Origin: Candidatus Eiseniibacteriota bacterium
Lineage (GTDB): Bacteria > JAFGKV01
Length of the DNA stretch: 5,486 nt
Assembly: GCA_025453925.1 (NCBI GenBank)
Contig: JALOPK010000245.1
Span: 1 to 5,486, forward strand
Direction of reading: 5' to 3'
In this document: piece by piece, positions 1 to 5,486 of the stretch
Layout of the letters: every line of letters starts with the position of its first letter
Position numbering within the stretch: the first letter of the stretch is position 1
Translations under genes and position numbers: made by a program
Notes under the pieces: model-generated
What the model was told of the DNA's origin: nothing
What the model saw: only the letters and a program-made list of their open reading frames with translations
The model's database searches: none

Positions 1-117
1 GTCGCGCAGCCGGCCGGCTTCCGGCGGGGATGTTGCCGCCAGCCGTCCCAGCGCGGCGTCGTCGACAAAATCCACTGCGCCGCCGCTGAGGACGCGTCGC
101 AGGCCAGTTGTCTCCAT
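1..117 (-). CDS. hydG: N-terminus of a following gene, probably maturase HydG (3' end outside window)
   Basis: Only the first 39 codons are inside the window (METTGLRRVLSGG, then AVDFVDDAALGRLAATSPPE and AGRLRD). A clear GGAGGT at 127-132 sits 9 bases before the ATG, and the ATG overlaps the hydE stop (TGATG), so this is a real start in the same operon. The segment with a hydrophobic-acidic stretch followed by a Pro-rich turn and an Arg-rich helix resembles the start of HydG (FID-E-I then P--V-R-I). HydG is the radical SAM tyrosine lyase that makes the CO and CN ligands of the H-cluster and is often beside hydE. The fragment contains no cofactor motif, so the identification rests mainly on position and a weak N-terminal resemblance. 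It does not look like HydF, which begins with a GTPase P-loop region. Confidence 0.55.
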   Translation of the reverse strand, partial: METTGLRRVLSGGAVDFVDDAALGRLAATSPPEAGRLRD

Positions 118-1178
118 CACGTGCGCACCTCCGCGACGAGTGCCGCCGCCGCGGGAGCCCATGACTTCGGCGCATCGCCCCTGCCGTCGCCGATGCAGCG
201 TCCCAGAGCCCGGATGCGCTCGATGATCCGGCGCGGCTCCGTTGTCGGATCCTCCCCATTCCCACCCTTGCCGGGATACACCTGGTAGAGCTGGCGGTAG
301 GGCGGCGGGGTGAGATTGGGCATAACCACATTGGCGCCCACGTTCAACCCCCGCTCCAATCCCGCACCAACATCCAGCGTGGAAAGAGCAGTGGTTGTGG
401 GGATATTGGCCCGGGGGCACTTGATCCGGGTGAGAGCCATCGCGGCGAGAGCGACCTCCGAGCCGCCGGGCACGCCGTTCGCCGACAACACTTCATGCCC
501 CAGTGGGGTGGCGGGATGGGGGATGAATGGGCCGACGCTGATCATATCCAGATCCAGTTCGCCGAACAACTCGATATCGCGGCTGAGATCATCGAAGGTC
601 TGGCCGGGAATGCCGACCATGACGCCGCTGCCGACCTCGTAGCCCAGATCCCGAAGGTGCGCGAGGAGCGACAGTCGTCCCGGCTCATCGGCGCGCTCCG
701 GGTGAATGCGCCGGTAGAGCTCCCGGTTGGATGTTTCGAACTTCAGGAGGTAGCGGTCGGCGCCAGAATCCCGCCATGCAGCCAACTCGTCCCGACGCCG
801 CTCTCCCAGACTGAGGGTGATGGCAAGAGAGGTTTCTTTCTTGATCCGGGTCACCAAAGAGCGCATCCAGCCGGCCTCGAGCCCCGGGTCTTCGCCGCTC
901 TGAAGCACGACGGTGCCGAAGCCCCACTCAACGGCCCGCCGCACCGCCTGCATGACCTCCTCCTCGGAGAGGCGGTACCGCGGGAGCCCCCCACGCGGAC
1001 GCCTCAACCCGCAATACGAGCAGTCTCTCACGCAGTAATTCGATACCTCGATGAGACCGCGCAGATGCACCGCATCGCCGACACCGCTCGCCCGCACCCG
1101 ATCGGCCCAATCCCAAAGCGCCTGCAGCCGCGCAGGATCACGCTCGGTGAGCCACGAACAAATGGTGGACCGGTCCAT
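117..1178 (-). CDS. hydE: [FeFe]-hydrogenase maturase HydE (radical SAM)
   Basis: A 353-residue radical SAM enzyme that helps build the diiron subcluster of the H-cluster, working with HydG and HydF; known HydE enzymes act on a cysteine-bound Fe(CO)2(CN) precursor delivered by HydG. The CxxxCxxC motif for the SAM-binding [4Fe-4S] cluster is Cys49, Cys53, Cys56 (CVRDCSYC) after the typical GDAVHLRGLIEVSN. Other family landmarks: GLRR, VVLQSGEDP, LSLGE, GADRYLL, GVMVGIPGQT, GPFIPHPATPL, GANVVMPNLTP and YRQLYQVYPGK. Length is close to Thermotoga maritima HydE (348). The cysteines that hold the extra C-terminal FeS cluster in the Thermotoga enzyme are missing, as in many family members. The start at 1178 gives a normal N-terminus; the frame runs further up to 1382, but that part overlaps the hybrid kinase gene and does not look like HydE. 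Shine-Dalgarno is poor, so translation is probably coupled to the kinase gene 4 bases upstream. Confidence 0.96.
   Translation of the reverse strand: MDRSTICSWLTERDPARLQALWDWADRVRASGVGDAVHLRGLIEVSNYCVRDCSYCGLRRPRGGLPRYRLSEEEVMQAVRRAVEWGFGTVVLQSGEDPGLEAGWMRSLVTRIKKETSLAITLSLGERRRDELAAWRDSGADRYLLKFETSNRELYRRIHPERADEPGRLSLLAHLRDLGYEVGSGVMVGIPGQTFDDLSRDIELFGELDLDMISVGPFIPHPATPLGHEVLSANGVPGGSEVALAAMALTRIKCPRANIPTTTALSTLDVGAGLERGLNVGANVVMPNLTPPPYRQLYQVYPGKGGNGEDPTTEPRRIIERIRALGRCIGDGRGDAPKSWAPAAAALVAEVRT
127..132 (-). promoter_or_regulatory. ribosome binding site of the gene following hydE
   Basis: GGAGGT on the minus strand, 9 bases before the ATG at 117. It is the strongest Shine-Dalgarno in the window, lies inside the end of hydE, and fixes the start of the truncated last gene. 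Confidence 0.8.
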
Positions 1179-1182
1179 GGCC

Positions 1183-2319
1183 TTATGTCGGCGCGGGCAA
1201 GGATTCCGCACCCGCGAGCACCACCTCGAAGGTCGTGCCCACGTCGGGCGTGCTGTGGACAGAGACCGTTCCCTGGTAAAGCGCCGAAATCCGCCTGACG
1301 ATGGAGAGACCCAACCCGCTTCCCAGGATGTCCCTTGTCTTGGAGTTCTTGATCCGCACGAATTCCCTGAAGAGCCTCCCACACTCCTCCTCGCTCATCC
1401 CGATTCCCGTGTCCACCACGCGGATGCGAACCCCGCCCGGCTCCGTGGCGAGGGTGACGTCGACCCGGCCGTGGTCGCGGTTGTACTTCACGGCATTGGA
1501 CACCAGGTTGTTGAATACGATGTCCAGCTCCCCGCGGTCGGCCACCATGGGGATGTCGGCCGGGCCATGGATCTCCATGGTGATGCTCCGCTCCTGCGCG
1601 GAGGGGAGGCATGTCTCCAGGGCCGCGGCTGCCACCTCGCGGACGTTGAGATGGGCCAGATCCCGTTTCTTCTGCCCCGACTCGATCCGCGTCAGGTCCA
1701 GCAGGTCGAAGATGAGCTTTTTCATGCCATCGATTCTGATCAGGCTGCGCTCTACCACCCTCGCCATGGCCACGGGATCCCGGGAGACCTGATCTCGCAT
1801 CAGATAGAGGTAGCCCTCCACTGCTGCCAGCGGCGCCTTCAACTCGTGCGCCAGCACGGAGATGAACTGAAAACGAATCTGGTGTTTCTCCAGGGCCAGC
1901 CGGCGGGCCTGGCGCTGCAGCATCAGATGCTTGGCCGCCTTGCGGAGAGATGCTTTCAGCTCGTCGGGCGTGAACGGCTTGGCCAGGAAGTCGAAGGCTC
2001 CCCTCTTCGTCGCGACGATGGCGGTTTCCAGCGATGCGTAGGCGGTGATCATGATGGTCAGGACATCGGTGACGCCCTCAAGCTTGGTCAGAAGATCGAG
2101 GCCCGACATGCCCGGCAGCTTGTGGTCGAGGAGCAGAATGTCGGGCGGCTGCACCCTGATGATGGCTTCACCCTCCTCCGCGGTGCCCGCCGGGGTCACG
2201 AGAAAGCCGACGTCGGTGTCGACTTCCTCCACTCGAAGCGAAAACGTCGAGAGCACCCGGGCGACCGCCGTGCGCATACCCGGTTCATCATCGACGACCA
2301 CGACACGCAACGTCTCCAT
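1183..2319 (-). CDS. hybrid receiver-histidine kinase (REC-HisKA-HATPase)
   Basis: A 378-residue cytoplasmic protein with the receiver at the front and the kinase behind. The receiver (1-~125) shows Asp10/Asp11 (VVDDEP), phospho-acceptor Asp65 (LLLDHKLPG), Thr92 (ITAYA) and Lys114 (AKPF). A helical linker (~125-150) leads to the H-box VLAHELKAPL (His158), N-box NNLVSNAVKYN (Asn275), G1 DTGIGM (303-308) and G2 GSGLGLSIV (333-341). No membrane helices, PAS or DNA-binding domain are seen. In this order the receiver works as an input: its phosphorylation by another kinase, plausibly the H-cluster sensor kinase upstream, could switch the C-terminal kinase. The receiver carries ~10 extra residues between the acidic pair and Asp65 (spacing 54, against 43 in the neighbouring regulator). 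A GGGAG lies 9 bases before the ATG, inside the end of the preceding gene, and the gap to that gene is 4 bases. The cognate target is not in the window. Confidence 0.92.
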   Translation of the reverse strand: METLRVVVVDDEPGMRTAVARVLSTFSLRVEEVDTDVGFLVTPAGTAEEGEAIIRVQPPDILLLDHKLPGMSGLDLLTKLEGVTDVLTIMITAYASLETAIVATKRGAFDFLAKPFTPDELKASLRKAAKHLMLQRQARRLALEKHQIRFQFISVLAHELKAPLAAVEGYLYLMRDQVSRDPVAMARVVERSLIRIDGMKKLIFDLLDLTRIESGQKKRDLAHLNVREVAAAALETCLPSAQERSITMEIHGPADIPMVADRGELDIVFNNLVSNAVKYNRDHGRVDVTLATEPGGVRIRVVDTGIGMSEEECGRLFREFVRIKNSKTRDILGSGLGLSIVRRISALYQGTVSVHSTPDVGTTFEVVLAGAESLPAPT

Positions 2320-2323
2320 CAGG

Positions 2324-2719
2324 TTACGCTCCCAGGAGCCTGGTGATTTCCCGGGTCAACTGCTCCGTCCGCACGGGCTTGGCCAGGATGGCATCCGCCC
2401 GGAGCCATGACCGGGATTCCGGCGAGGTTCGATCAAACACCATGCCGGTCTCGCTGGTGACGGCGGTGACCATGATGACCGGCACGCCGGGATACGCCTT
2501 CTTGATCTTGTAGCTGAGCACGAACCCGCCATCCATGTTCTCCATCATGAGATCGAGGATGGCGATGTCGGGCCGCAGCGTCTCCAGCAACCGTTCCGCC
2601 TCGGCCTGGCCGGGCGCGGTATGCACGGCATAGCCGGCGCCTTCCAGGGTGAGGCGCATCTGCTCCCGGAAGTCACCATCATCGTCAACCACGAGCACCG
2701 TCTTCTGTTGGGCCGTCAT
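2324..2719 (-). CDS. single-domain response regulator (receiver only)
   Basis: A 131-residue CheY-like receiver and nothing else. Phosphorylation-site residues are visible: acidic Asp12/Asp13 (VVDDDGDF), phospho-acceptor Asp56 (AILDLMM), switch Thr85 (IMVTAV) and Lys114 (LAKPV). There is no DNA-binding, enzymatic or other output domain, so it acts as a phosphate carrier or through protein contacts. The Thr85-Lys114 spacing is 29 residues, about seven longer than in CheY (22), because of an insertion (around DRTSPESRSWLRAD). The start at 2719 is chosen because the receiver fold begins there, an AGGAG lies 11 bases upstream, and the ATG overlaps the TGA of the sensor kinase (ATGA). A longer upstream reading of the frame gives only low-complexity out-of-frame translation of the kinase gene. 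The direct partner is presumably the H-cluster sensor kinase just upstream. Confidence 0.93.
   Translation of the reverse strand: MTAQQKTVLVVDDDGDFREQMRLTLEGAGYAVHTAPGQAEAERLLETLRPDIAILDLMMENMDGGFVLSYKIKKAYPGVPVIMVTAVTSETGMVFDRTSPESRSWLRADAILAKPVRTEQLTREITRLLGA
2329..2333 (-). promoter_or_regulatory. ribosome binding site of the hybrid kinase
   Basis: GGGAG on the minus strand, 9 bases before the ATG at 2319. It falls in the final Gly-Ala codons of the preceding receiver gene, which fits coupled translation. Confidence 0.55.
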
Positions 2720-4755
2720 AGCTCTTCTCTCTCCTGTGCGAGCATACGCTTGCCGTTCGTCGAGTCCACCCGCGGAAGCGTGACCGTGAAGGTCGACCCC
2801 ATGGGACCGACCGTCGGATCCGAATTCGACACGACTCTGATATCCCCCGAGTGCATCTTGATTATGCCGTAGGTCACCGCCAGGCCGAGGCCGGTACCCT
2901 TGCCCATCTGCTTGGTGGTGAAGAAAGGCTCGAATACCCTGCCGACATTGGCCTCGGGGATGCCGACGCCGGTGTCCGCAACCGCGCATCGCACGACCTG
3001 GTCATCACCGGAAGTACGCACGGCGAGCGTGCCCCCCGAAGGCATGGCATCGAGGGCGTTTGTGATGATATTGATGAGCACCTGGGTGATCTGGTCGGCG
3101 TCCAGATCCGCGACAACGGGGCCCGGTTCGCGGAATACCTCTACCCGCACGCTCTCGGGTATCTGGATGGCTTTGAGGCAACGGTCGACCAGGTCGGCCA
3201 GATTCACGGGCTGGCGAACCACCTTGTTCTGCCGCGCGAAGTCAAGCAGACCCGCCACGATCTTCTTGCAGCGATCGGCCTGCTGGGCGATCAAAGCCAT
3301 ATCCTCCCGCAGAGGCGACCCCGGTTCGCACTGGTCCAGCAGCAGGTGGGCATAGAGCAGAACGACTCCCAAAGGGTTGTTGACTTCATGGGCGATGCCC
3401 GCGGCGAGTTGTCCCATGCTGGCGAGTTTCTCCGTCTGGGTCAGAAGCTGCTGGGTCTTCTCCAGCTCTTCGTGGGAGATCTCCAGCTCGGCGAACGCCT
3501 GGCGCAATCTCTCGATGGTGTATGGCAGGCACATCTCGCTCTCCGCCAGCCCCGTGAGGATGGCGCTGGCGTGCTCACGGCAGGTATCGTATCCGCAGGC
3601 TCCGCAGTTGAGTTCATCCTCCGGCCGCGTCTTGCCCATCCTGGCGAGAATCTCCTCGATCTCCCCGCCGCCCGGGGGCGAGATGCGCTGATCACAGGGG
3701 ATGAACGAACGGGAAAGGTCAATGCCCGCGCAGCCCTCTATCGCGGCGGTCCACGTCGCGGCATCCCGCGACGCGGCCTGTTCACGCGCGTACTTGCTGA
3801 CCCGGGAACGGCGGCGGAGCAATGGTTCCCGAGACGTCATTCCAGGCCCCATGATGCAGCCCCGGCAGCACAGCAGTTCCAGAAGCGTGGCATCAAGGTC
3901 CTTGGACTCGAACTCCCTGATGGCTTCGATGAACCGGACGCGCCCGTCGGCGGCTACGAGATCGCCGTCCATGAGATCTTCGTAGACGCCGGCCGCTTGC
4001 AGCATTCCCCGCGTGATCGGGAACAGCGATCCCCGGCCCGCCAGGGGGGGATCGAAATCGCTGGGTGAGACCGAGCCCGGCGTGATTCGACCGGCATCGA
4101 GCATTTCCCGAAGCTCGGCGAAGGTGAGCACCGAATCAACCTCACCCCGGACTTCGTCGGTGGCCCCTTCCCGTTTCTTGGCGATACAGGGGCCGATGAA
4201 CACGACCCCGATTTCCGAGCCGTGGAGGTGCCGCAGGACTCGGGCCTCGGCCACCATGGGCGACACGATGGGCGCCAGGGAGGGGATCAAGTCGGGGTGG
4301 TAGCGTTTGACGTAGCCGAATACGGCCGGGCAGGTTGTAGAGATGTAGCGCCCGCCATCATTGCCGTCCAACAGCTTCCGGTACTCCCGCGCCACCAGGT
4401 CGGCCCCGAACCCGACCTCGTTGACCCAGCGGAAGCCGAGGGCCCTGACCATGGCTACCATGATGGTGGAAGGAACGTCGATGAACTCCGCCGGGAAGCT
4501 GGGGGCGATGCAGGCGACAACAGGAACGGGCCCCTCCAGAAGGCGACGCACCTCATCGGTGGAGCTGATGACCTGTTTGGCTCGCTGGCTGCACACCGTG
4601 ACGCAGTTCCCGCAACCGATGCATCGGTCTACCATCACCTCCGCCTGCCCGTCAACGATGCGGATCGCCTTGGCGGGACATTCCCGGACGCAGGTGTAGC
4701 ACACACGGCAACGGTCCTTGATGGTCGAGACGAGCGGAAGGGTCGCGGTACTCAT
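2716..4755 (-). CDS. H-cluster-domain iron-sulfur sensor histidine kinase (HydS-like)
   Basis: A 679-residue soluble protein with no signal peptide or membrane segment visible. Domains in order: a 2x[4Fe-4S] ferredoxin-like part (Cys16, 19, 22, 26 and Cys45, 48, 51, 55); a divergent [FeFe]-hydrogenase domain (~79-320) with P1-like STTCP (Cys142), P2-like GPCIAKK (Cys190) and P3-like CCRGC (Cys296, 300); a Fes-type [4Fe-4S] domain (CGACGYDTC, Cys384/387/392, plus Cys409); a helical, probably coiled-coil linker (~413-445); and a kinase core with H-box AHEVNNP (His456), N-box around Asn566, G1 DTGVGIP (594-600), F-box FEPFFTTK and G2 GKGTGLGL (618-625). All four cysteines expected to hold the H-cluster cubane remain, but the proton-relay Cys before the P1 ligand is Thr141, as expected for a sensor rather than a turnover enzyme. 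The family resembles histidine-kinase-linked sensory (group C-like) hydrogenases. The likely role is H2/redox sensing with autophosphorylation of His456. Shine-Dalgarno is weak (GTAGG). The TGA overlaps the next start by 4 bases. Confidence 0.92.
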   Translation of the reverse strand: MSTATLPLVSTIKDRCRVCYTCVRECPAKAIRIVDGQAEVMVDRCIGCGNCVTVCSQRAKQVISSTDEVRRLLEGPVPVVACIAPSFPAEFIDVPSTIMVAMVRALGFRWVNEVGFGADLVAREYRKLLDGNDGGRYISTTCPAVFGYVKRYHPDLIPSLAPIVSPMVAEARVLRHLHGSEIGVVFIGPCIAKKREGATDEVRGEVDSVLTFAELREMLDAGRITPGSVSPSDFDPPLAGRGSLFPITRGMLQAAGVYEDLMDGDLVAADGRVRFIEAIREFESKDLDATLLELLCCRGCIMGPGMTSREPLLRRRSRVSKYAREQAASRDAATWTAAIEGCAGIDLSRSFIPCDQRISPPGGGEIEEILARMGKTRPEDELNCGACGYDTCREHASAILTGLAESEMCLPYTIERLRQAFAELEISHEELEKTQQLLTQTEKLASMGQLAAGIAHEVNNPLGVVLLYAHLLLDQCEPGSPLREDMALIAQQADRCKKIVAGLLDFARQNKVVRQPVNLADLVDRCLKAIQIPESVRVEVFREPGPVVADLDADQITQVLINIITNALDAMPSGGTLAVRTSGDDQVVRCAVADTGVGIPEANVGRVFEPFFTTKQMGKGTGLGLAVTYGIIKMHSGDIRVVSNSDPTVGPMGSTFTVTLPRVDSTNGKRMLAQEREEL
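2731..2735 (-). promoter_or_regulatory. ribosome binding site of the single-domain response regulator
   Basis: AGGAG on the minus strand, 11 bases before the ATG at 2719 and inside the last codons of the sensor kinase gene. Together with the ATGA overlap it supports 2719 as the start rather than a longer protein. Confidence 0.65.
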
Positions 4756-4761
4756 GGAAAC

Positions 4762-5486
4762 CTACCGCACGACGGACCGGGGAGTGTAGTGGGTGTGGAG
4801 AAGGTGGTGGCTCCGCTCCCCCAGCGGCGCGCCCAGGAACTCCTCATAGAGGCGCTGCACGGCCCGGTTGTCGTGGGACGTGCGCACCACGTCGTTCTTG
4901 TCGATTTCGTACAATCCCTTCATCCGGGCGCGAATGGCAGACGGATCGATCCCCAGAAGCTGCCCGCCGCCGGCGATGCATCCTCCCGGGCACGTCATGA
5001 TCTCCACGAAGTGCAGAGCGTGACCCGCCTTGATACGATCGAGCAGCCCCCTCGCATTCGCGAGGCCGCTGGCCACCGCGACGTTGACGGTGAGGCCGTC
5101 AATAGCCACGGAGGCTTCCTTGGTTCCTGCGAGGCCGCGGACGGCCTTGACCCGCACCTGGGGCAGCTCCGTGCCCGTGAGCAGGAAATGCGCCGTGCGC
5201 AGGGCGGCCTCCATGACGCCGCCCGTCGCGCCGAACAACTTGCCCGCGCTGCTGCGGTCGCCGAAGGGGATGTCCTGGGGCTCGGGGTCGAGGGACCGGA
5301 GATCTATGCCGTGCATGCGGATAAGGTGGGCCAACTCGCGGGTGGTGAGCACGGCATCGAGATCGGGCATGCCCTGGGCGCCCATTTCGGGACGCGCCGC
5401 CTCGAACTTCTTGGCGGTGCAGGGCATGATGGCGACGCTGAATACCTTGGCCGGGTCGATCCCCTCCCGAGGGGCGTAGTGGTGTT
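4762..5486 (-). CDS. hydA: [FeFe]-hydrogenase catalytic subunit, C-terminal part (5' end outside window)
   Basis: This is the C-terminal 240 residues of an [FeFe]-hydrogenase large subunit, the enzyme that interconverts H2 with protons and electrons at the H-cluster. The reading frame stays open to the window edge: 19 codons (ending FSVAI) precede the Met of MPCTAKKFE, so that Met is the internal P2 motif and not a start. Visible H-cluster elements are P2 (MPCTAKKFE; Cys at fragment residue 22, Lys three residues later), the FGATGGVMEAALR segment, and P3 (EIMTCPGGCIAGGGQ; Cys 165 and 169). The last ~55 residues (LYEIDKND, SHDN, YEEFLGAPLG, SHHLLHTHY) form the small-subunit-like tail fused to monomeric and HydABC-type group A enzymes. 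All P2/P3 ligands are present, so it should be catalytically competent. P1 (TSCCP) and the N-terminal FeS domains lie outside, so a stand-alone enzyme and a HydABC-type electron-bifurcating subunit cannot be told apart. It ends in TAG, 6 bases before the next gene. Confidence 0.94.
   Translation of the reverse strand, partial: HHYAPREGIDPAKVFSVAIMPCTAKKFEAARPEMGAQGMPDLDAVLTTRELAHLIRMHGIDLRSLDPEPQDIPFGDRSSAGKLFGATGGVMEAALRTAHFLLTGTELPQVRVKAVRGLAGTKEASVAIDGLTVNVAVASGLANARGLLDRIKAGHALHFVEIMTCPGGCIAGGGQLLGIDPSAIRARMKGLYEIDKNDVVRTSHDNRAVQRLYEEFLGAPLGERSHHLLHTHYTPRSVVR

Follow-up and report, generated by a model that had tools for sequence, protein, structure and literature searches.

A PAS-less HydS-type histidine kinase in an [FeFe]-hydrogenase operon of Candidatus Eiseniibacteriota: a candidate hydrogen sensor

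In a draft genome of a Candidatus Eiseniibacteriota bacterium, the gene for a catalytic [FeFe]-hydrogenase is followed by one for a protein that joins a hydrogenase domain to a histidine kinase, which raises the question of what this kinase senses and to which partner it passes the signal. The window, i.e., the whole stretch of DNA that was analysed, is the complete contig C269 (5486 bp) of this genome (3.9 Mb, 502 contigs, estimated completeness 82%). All genes of the window are located head to tail on the minus strand, in the order HydA C-terminal part, HydS-type kinase, receiver-only protein, REC-HK, HydE and start of HydG. They are separated by gaps of 4 to 6 nt or overlap by a few bases (e.g., ATGA between kinase and receiver) and therefore look translationally coupled. 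The HydA fragment (4762..5484), which contains Fe_hyd_lg_C and Fe_hyd_SSU, is the C-terminal part of a catalytic group A hydrogenase; its top NCBIfam model is group A6 with 315 bits, which is below the model cut-off; the gene is truncated at the contig end. A gap of only 6 nt separates HydA from the kinase gene, which the initial annotation had correctly placed directly downstream of a catalytic [FeFe]-hydrogenase. The ATG of the receiver-only response regulator (2324..2719; D56; Pfam Response_reg, 5.5e-19) overlaps the kinase stop codon, and the following REC-HK gene (1183..2319) encodes, according to a domain search, a receiver (D65), a HisKA (H158) and a HATPase_c domain. The H-cluster maturase HydE is encoded at 117..1178 (TIGR03956, 290 bits, cut-off 254.6). 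No DNA-binding output was found within the window. Long antisense ORFs of this high-GC sequence overlie the coding genes on the plus strand (1051-2346, 2851-4068 and 4222-5484).

The start of hydG (1..117) is cut by the contig end, and 104 of 108 bases are identical to the start of a second contig of the same genome, C406, which yields matches for HydG (468 bits) and HydF (532 bits). C406 encodes HydG, a fumarase/aspartase-type lyase, HydF, a Rex-type regulator, a HydC-like protein, which was labelled from its translation without a family search, and a HydB-like protein. The lyase (positions 1361-2845 of locus L135) and the Rex-type redox repressor (4482-5093; Put_DNA-bind_N and CoA_binding) lie among the maturase genes. 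C406 ends just past the HydB-like gene (5529-7529), which precedes HydA in related loci; the two contigs could thus also join in the opposite arrangement, and their overlap could reflect a circle, a tandem copy or a strain-variant assembly break. There was no sign of bin contamination (GC 0.648; tetranucleotide distance 0.122, within the range of 0.118-0.164 for chunks of the same genome), composition being a weak test. In a phylum-level search covering three genomes, the two nearest relatives of the source genome yielded no such cluster.

The kinase gene (2716..4755) encodes a HydS-type histidine kinase of 679 amino acids, in which a group C [FeFe]-hydrogenase is fused to HisKA-HATPase_c. That ferredoxin-like clusters, H-domain, FeS domain and kinase core reside in one protein, as had been noticed initially, was borne out by the single ORF and by a profile search that matched Fe_hyd_lg_C, FeS/PF04060, HisKA and HATPase_c. 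The N-terminal two-[4Fe-4S] ferredoxin-like domain (4582..4722, residues 12-58) carries the cysteines C16/19/22/26 and C45/48/51/55 and matches Fer4_10 (4.2e-9, residues 12-55). It is followed by the H-domain (3844..4524, residues 78-304; Fe_hyd_lg_C, 7.2e-43), which resembles solved [FeFe]-hydrogenases in both its sequence (7p5h, E 1.1e-21) and its predicted fold (Foldseek E 4.6e-20). All four H-cluster cysteines are present: C142 in the P1 motif ISTTCPAVF (4318..4344), where a Thr at the preceding position occupies the place of the proton shuttle C299 of CpI; C190 in the P2 motif FIGPCIAKKRE (4168..4200), where Gly188 stands at the CpI M353 position; and C297 and C300 in the P3 region ELLCCRGCIMGP (3844..3879). 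The FeS domain (3529..3606; PF04060, 8.2e-9, residues 382-411) contains the motif Cx2Cx4Cx16C with C384, C387, C392 and C409. The HisKA domain (3229..3417; 2.2e-13, residues 447-509) provides the phospho-acceptor His456 (nt 3388-3390), and the HATPase_c domain (2770..3102; 1.4e-23, residues 552-662) contains the boxes D594xGxG, FEPFFTTK and GTGLGL, so that the kinase boxes and the phospho-acceptor of a HisKA-type histidine kinase are all intact. The kinase core matches ZraS in sequence (E 1.9e-34) and also in fold.

A frame or fusion artefact was ruled out since the same domain order is found in 30 other full-length proteins from about ten phyla. A scan of a genome collection revealed about 30 loci with the same arrangement and 48-64% identity, a sample that leans to close relatives as the scan patterns were built from the window protein; one further close relative (61%) and more distant ones at 40-46% came from a whole-genome search. 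The relatives belong to Planctomycetota, Neomarinimicrobiota, Eiseniibacteriota, Myxococcota, Bacteroidota, Elusimicrobiota, Acidobacteriota, Calditrichota, KSB1 and Bdellovibrionota. None of the 16 cluster cysteines varies across 31 full-length members including the window protein, and His456 is invariant in an alignment of 27 members.

The initial annotation had also pointed to a direct join of FeS domain and kinase without a PAS domain. Indeed, none of the PAS family models matched the 679-aa protein at E<=0.001, and the last FeS cysteine, C409, is separated from His456 by 47 residues, a distance too short for a PAS domain; a hidden PAS domain was thus ruled out. The same spacing was found in all loci that were read but three, L006 (40 residues), L087 and L088 (both 54 residues), each of which is exactly one heptad off. 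Steps of one heptad would be needed to keep a coiled coil continuous; this sample of length changes is small. Based on spacing and structural model, the linker (3391..3528) is read as a heptad helix that runs from the FeS domain to the DHp helix. The AlphaFold2 model (mean pLDDT 82, pTM 0.62) contains a helix at residues 410-431, and the linker geometry cannot be read from the model because of the pTM and a confidence below 50 for residues 427-457. The PAS-less join of FeS domain and kinase is the rule in the HK-type kinase family.

The proposal that the protein is of the sensory group C type and fused to a histidine kinase agrees with its Pfam domains and with an H-domain tree of 61 proteins, in which it is placed within the group C clade (support 99/90), apart from the separate clades of groups A (100/98), B (100/98) and D (100/100). 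The reference groups of this tree were set by domain order and NCBIfam/Pfam models rather than by named type sequences, and HydA genes of operons of this same type make up half of the group A references. The group C clade also contains PAS- and chemotaxis-type relatives. Of the four PAS-type references, two match several PAS models, one matches PAS_8, and the fourth, which matches none, was placed by length and similarity. The main HK clade comprises 28 members (100/98), and the distant HK proteins L086-L088 and L128 form its sister group (98/90), which includes a long-branched chemotaxis-type protein. In the latter (L099, 1171-3108), a group C H-domain and an FeS domain are fused to a methyl-accepting chemotaxis signalling domain, which makes it the chemotactic counterpart of the window kinase. 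One genome (G047:C65) encodes two HK-type group C proteins in tandem (55796-57775 and 58360-60261). The window protein has the sensory-type substitutions known from groups C and D (PMC8163306), i.e., the loss of C299, M353 replaced by Gly and the Cx2Cx4Cx16C C-terminal cluster, and it lacks the PAS domain after the FeS domain by which some authors define group C (M2f).

The best explanation of the locus is that a group C [FeFe]-hydrogenase serves as a sensor rather than a catalyst, with a path via the kinase to REC-HK or the receiver. We consider this reading probable, based on domain order, motifs, tree placement, sensory substitutions, the 16 invariant cysteines, the heptad spacing, the HydA/HydE/HydG operon together with HydG and HydF on C406, the linkage to REC-HK with matched divergence, and the intact kinase boxes. 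The window kinase is likely to sense H2. Two observations count against an H2 sensor: all other groups sampled have a longer P3 loop, and HydE, HydF and HydG were not detectable in the genome that encodes L088.

The initial annotation had listed P1, P2 and P3 cysteines; all four are present and invariant in the 31 members, and the P3 spacing can now be refined. The window protein has C297-x2-C300 and thus lacks one residue compared with the usual Cx3C. The invariant P3 cysteines form CxxC in 26 of the 31 HK members, while CCRGGC is found in five closely related Myxococcales proteins; in contrast, the 29 references from groups A, B, D, C-PAS and C-MCP all have Cx3C. In 20 of the 26 CxxC members, including the window protein, an extra preceding cysteine (C296 in the window protein) results in a formal Cx3C, but this residue is not invariant. 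The short loop is one of the points that favour the main rival, a redox sensor whose H-domain would contain [4Fe-4S] only or an altered H-cluster and whose kinase would read the ferredoxin/NADH redox state via the FeS clusters. A second point comes from G060, a single contig of 5.0 Mb (96% complete), which carries the HK-type sister L088 (about 40% identity) and a group D protein, and in which HydG, HydE and HydF were not found at thresholds of E 1e-60, 1e-25 and 1e-40, respectively. However, no maturase was found in G015, G080 and G081 either, all of which have a group A HydA, and thus a missing match does not prove absence. The redox sensor is opposed by the invariance of the four H-cluster cysteines, by the HydE gene and the HydG start in the window operon together with the HydG and HydF genes of the adjoining contig, which supply the genome with all three maturases, and by the kinase-bearing genomes G027, G042 and G047, which hold all three as well. 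We regard a redox sensor without a full H-cluster as unlikely, although it is the main rival. In G060, the HK-type sister protein (L147, 7292-9349) adjoins receiver proteins, one neighbouring receiver gene being partly N, and no hydrogenase genes were recognised nearby. A group D protein without PAS and kinase domains is also encoded in the genome of the window (L104, G000:C420, 1813-3135) and in its two nearest relatives (L145, 2922-4229, and L146, 5369-6706; 85% and 70% identical). These two genomes (94% and 98% complete) yielded no HydE or HydG and no HydF above cut-off.

The partner of the kinase is suggested by its neighbourhood. A REC-HK orthologue (45-62% identity) adjoins the kinase at each of the 30 main-clade loci whose flanks are long enough (whole at 27 and partial at 3; L004 and L028, which end at a contig edge, were left out), and none was found at the sister-group loci L086-L088. 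The receiver-only protein is common and absent from several loci, mainly of Myxococcales. Kinase and REC-HK show correlated pairwise identities (r=0.92, 26 proteins); where HydA is present as well (15 loci), the correlation is 0.80 for kinase and REC-HK versus 0.69 for kinase and HydA, with none of 200 permutations as high, shared ancestry contributing to all of these values. HydA itself is found beside the kinase at many loci and is non-adjacent in the Myxococcales set. This distribution bears on the possibility that the protein is a BfuT-like regulatory subunit, which would bind the HydABC complex and tune it post-translationally, kinase activity being secondary. The position directly after HydA in the window, the adjacency of HydA elsewhere and the naming of a related gene, on synteny, as the T subunit of BfuABC clusters (PMC11406978) are in line with this idea; however, the kinase core is complete, and the partner that is kept everywhere is REC-HK rather than HydA, which makes a regulatory subunit improbable. 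Still less probable is a sensor that responds to H-cluster damage by O2 or CO instead of to H2: H-clusters react with CO and O2, and the behaviour towards CO is altered in TamHydS and TmHydS (PMC8163306), but nothing in the locus suggests CO or O2 handling, and the lower CO sensitivity reported for sensory types speaks against a CO sensor.

Control of the kinase by H2 is the best reading, and we infer that it probably applies. H2 would react at the H-cluster in the H-domain, and the change would be relayed via the ferredoxin/FeS part to the continuous coiled-coil helix, whose phase is backed by the spacing. This helix would lead into the DHp helix with His456, thereby altering autophosphorylation. 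Given the constant linkage, the phosphate may be passed to the receiver of REC-HK, to the receiver-only protein or to both, and the phosphorylated partner could adjust the neighbouring hydrogenase or its expression. The kinase would then tell the cell how much hydrogen is present, and a mechanism would be available for a putative sensory group that lies beside hydrogenase operons in many phyla. A tentative and rather doubtful extension is that the HK-type group C proteins form a distinct sensor class with an altered H-cluster site (short P3), whose cluster, either modified or [2Fe]-free, would drive the kinase and act through the heptad-phased helix on an obligate REC-HK, some members residing in organisms without HydE/F/G. 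In a non-exhaustive search of openly licensed full text, no earlier description was found of the heptad rule, the REC-HK partner or the P3 deletion. As for how sensory [FeFe]-hydrogenases relay their signal, the window kinase unites sensor and kinase in a single polypeptide with a defined linker and a partner of constant linkage, so that H2-to-phosphate signalling could be assayed in one tube.

Several known systems resemble the window kinase. Within group C, HydDB distinguishes the putative types C1 (histidine kinase-linked), C2 (chemotactic) and C3 (phosphatase-linked) (PMC5037454). The window protein is like C1, for which H2 sensing has been proposed, in that a group C H-domain is tied to histidine kinase signalling (PMC5037454). 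According to a 2024 study, group C proteins with a PAS or histidine-kinase domain, there termed C3, are BfuT proteins adjoining A3 hydrogenases, and locating H-cluster motifs in its C1 proteins proved difficult (PMC11406978). As the kinase-fused BfuT received its C3 label there via the best HydDB hit, the C1/C3 label of the HK-linked family is unsettled. BfuT sub-type V of Hydrogenedentota and Calditrichota likewise combines a histidine kinase with a group C protein in a bfuABC/hydABC cluster (PMC11406978); the Caldithrix relative L031 is 58% identical to the window protein, and the window kinase is syntenic with a group A HydA as sub-type V is with A3, the window HydA being assigned to group A only. 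A REC-HK partner, heptad spacing or P3 deletion was not found in the accessible part of the BfuT description (PMC11406978).

The models described as characterised in the literature are TmHydS, which has a PAS domain, and TamHydS, which has no output domain. Thermotoga maritima HydS (group C, M2f) shares two N-terminal clusters, the H-domain, the C-terminal Cx2Cx4Cx16C, the loss of C299 and the replacement of M353 by Gly with the window protein (PMC8163306, PMC10407848). However, TmHydS continues into PAS, whereas the FeS domain of the window protein leads straight to the kinase, and the M497 position is Ser in TmHydS but Leu in the window protein. Thermoanaerobacter mathranii HydS (group D, M2e) has the same Fer-H-FeS order without PAS, but it stops after the FeS domain and belongs to the separate group D clade. 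Regulatory [NiFe]-hydrogenase/HoxJ systems for H2 sensing also use a hydrogenase as histidine kinase input, although their hydrogenase type is unrelated to that of the window, and HoxJ is a separate kinase protein. HoxJ has a PAS-like sequence (PMC8163306), and the C-terminal cluster of TamHydS is not reduced by H2 (PMC13104023). The absence of PAS, which the initial annotation had considered less familiar, is a family rule, and HK-linked group C proteins have already been catalogued (PMC5037454; PMC11406978); the window kinase is a well-formed, ordinary member of this known family.
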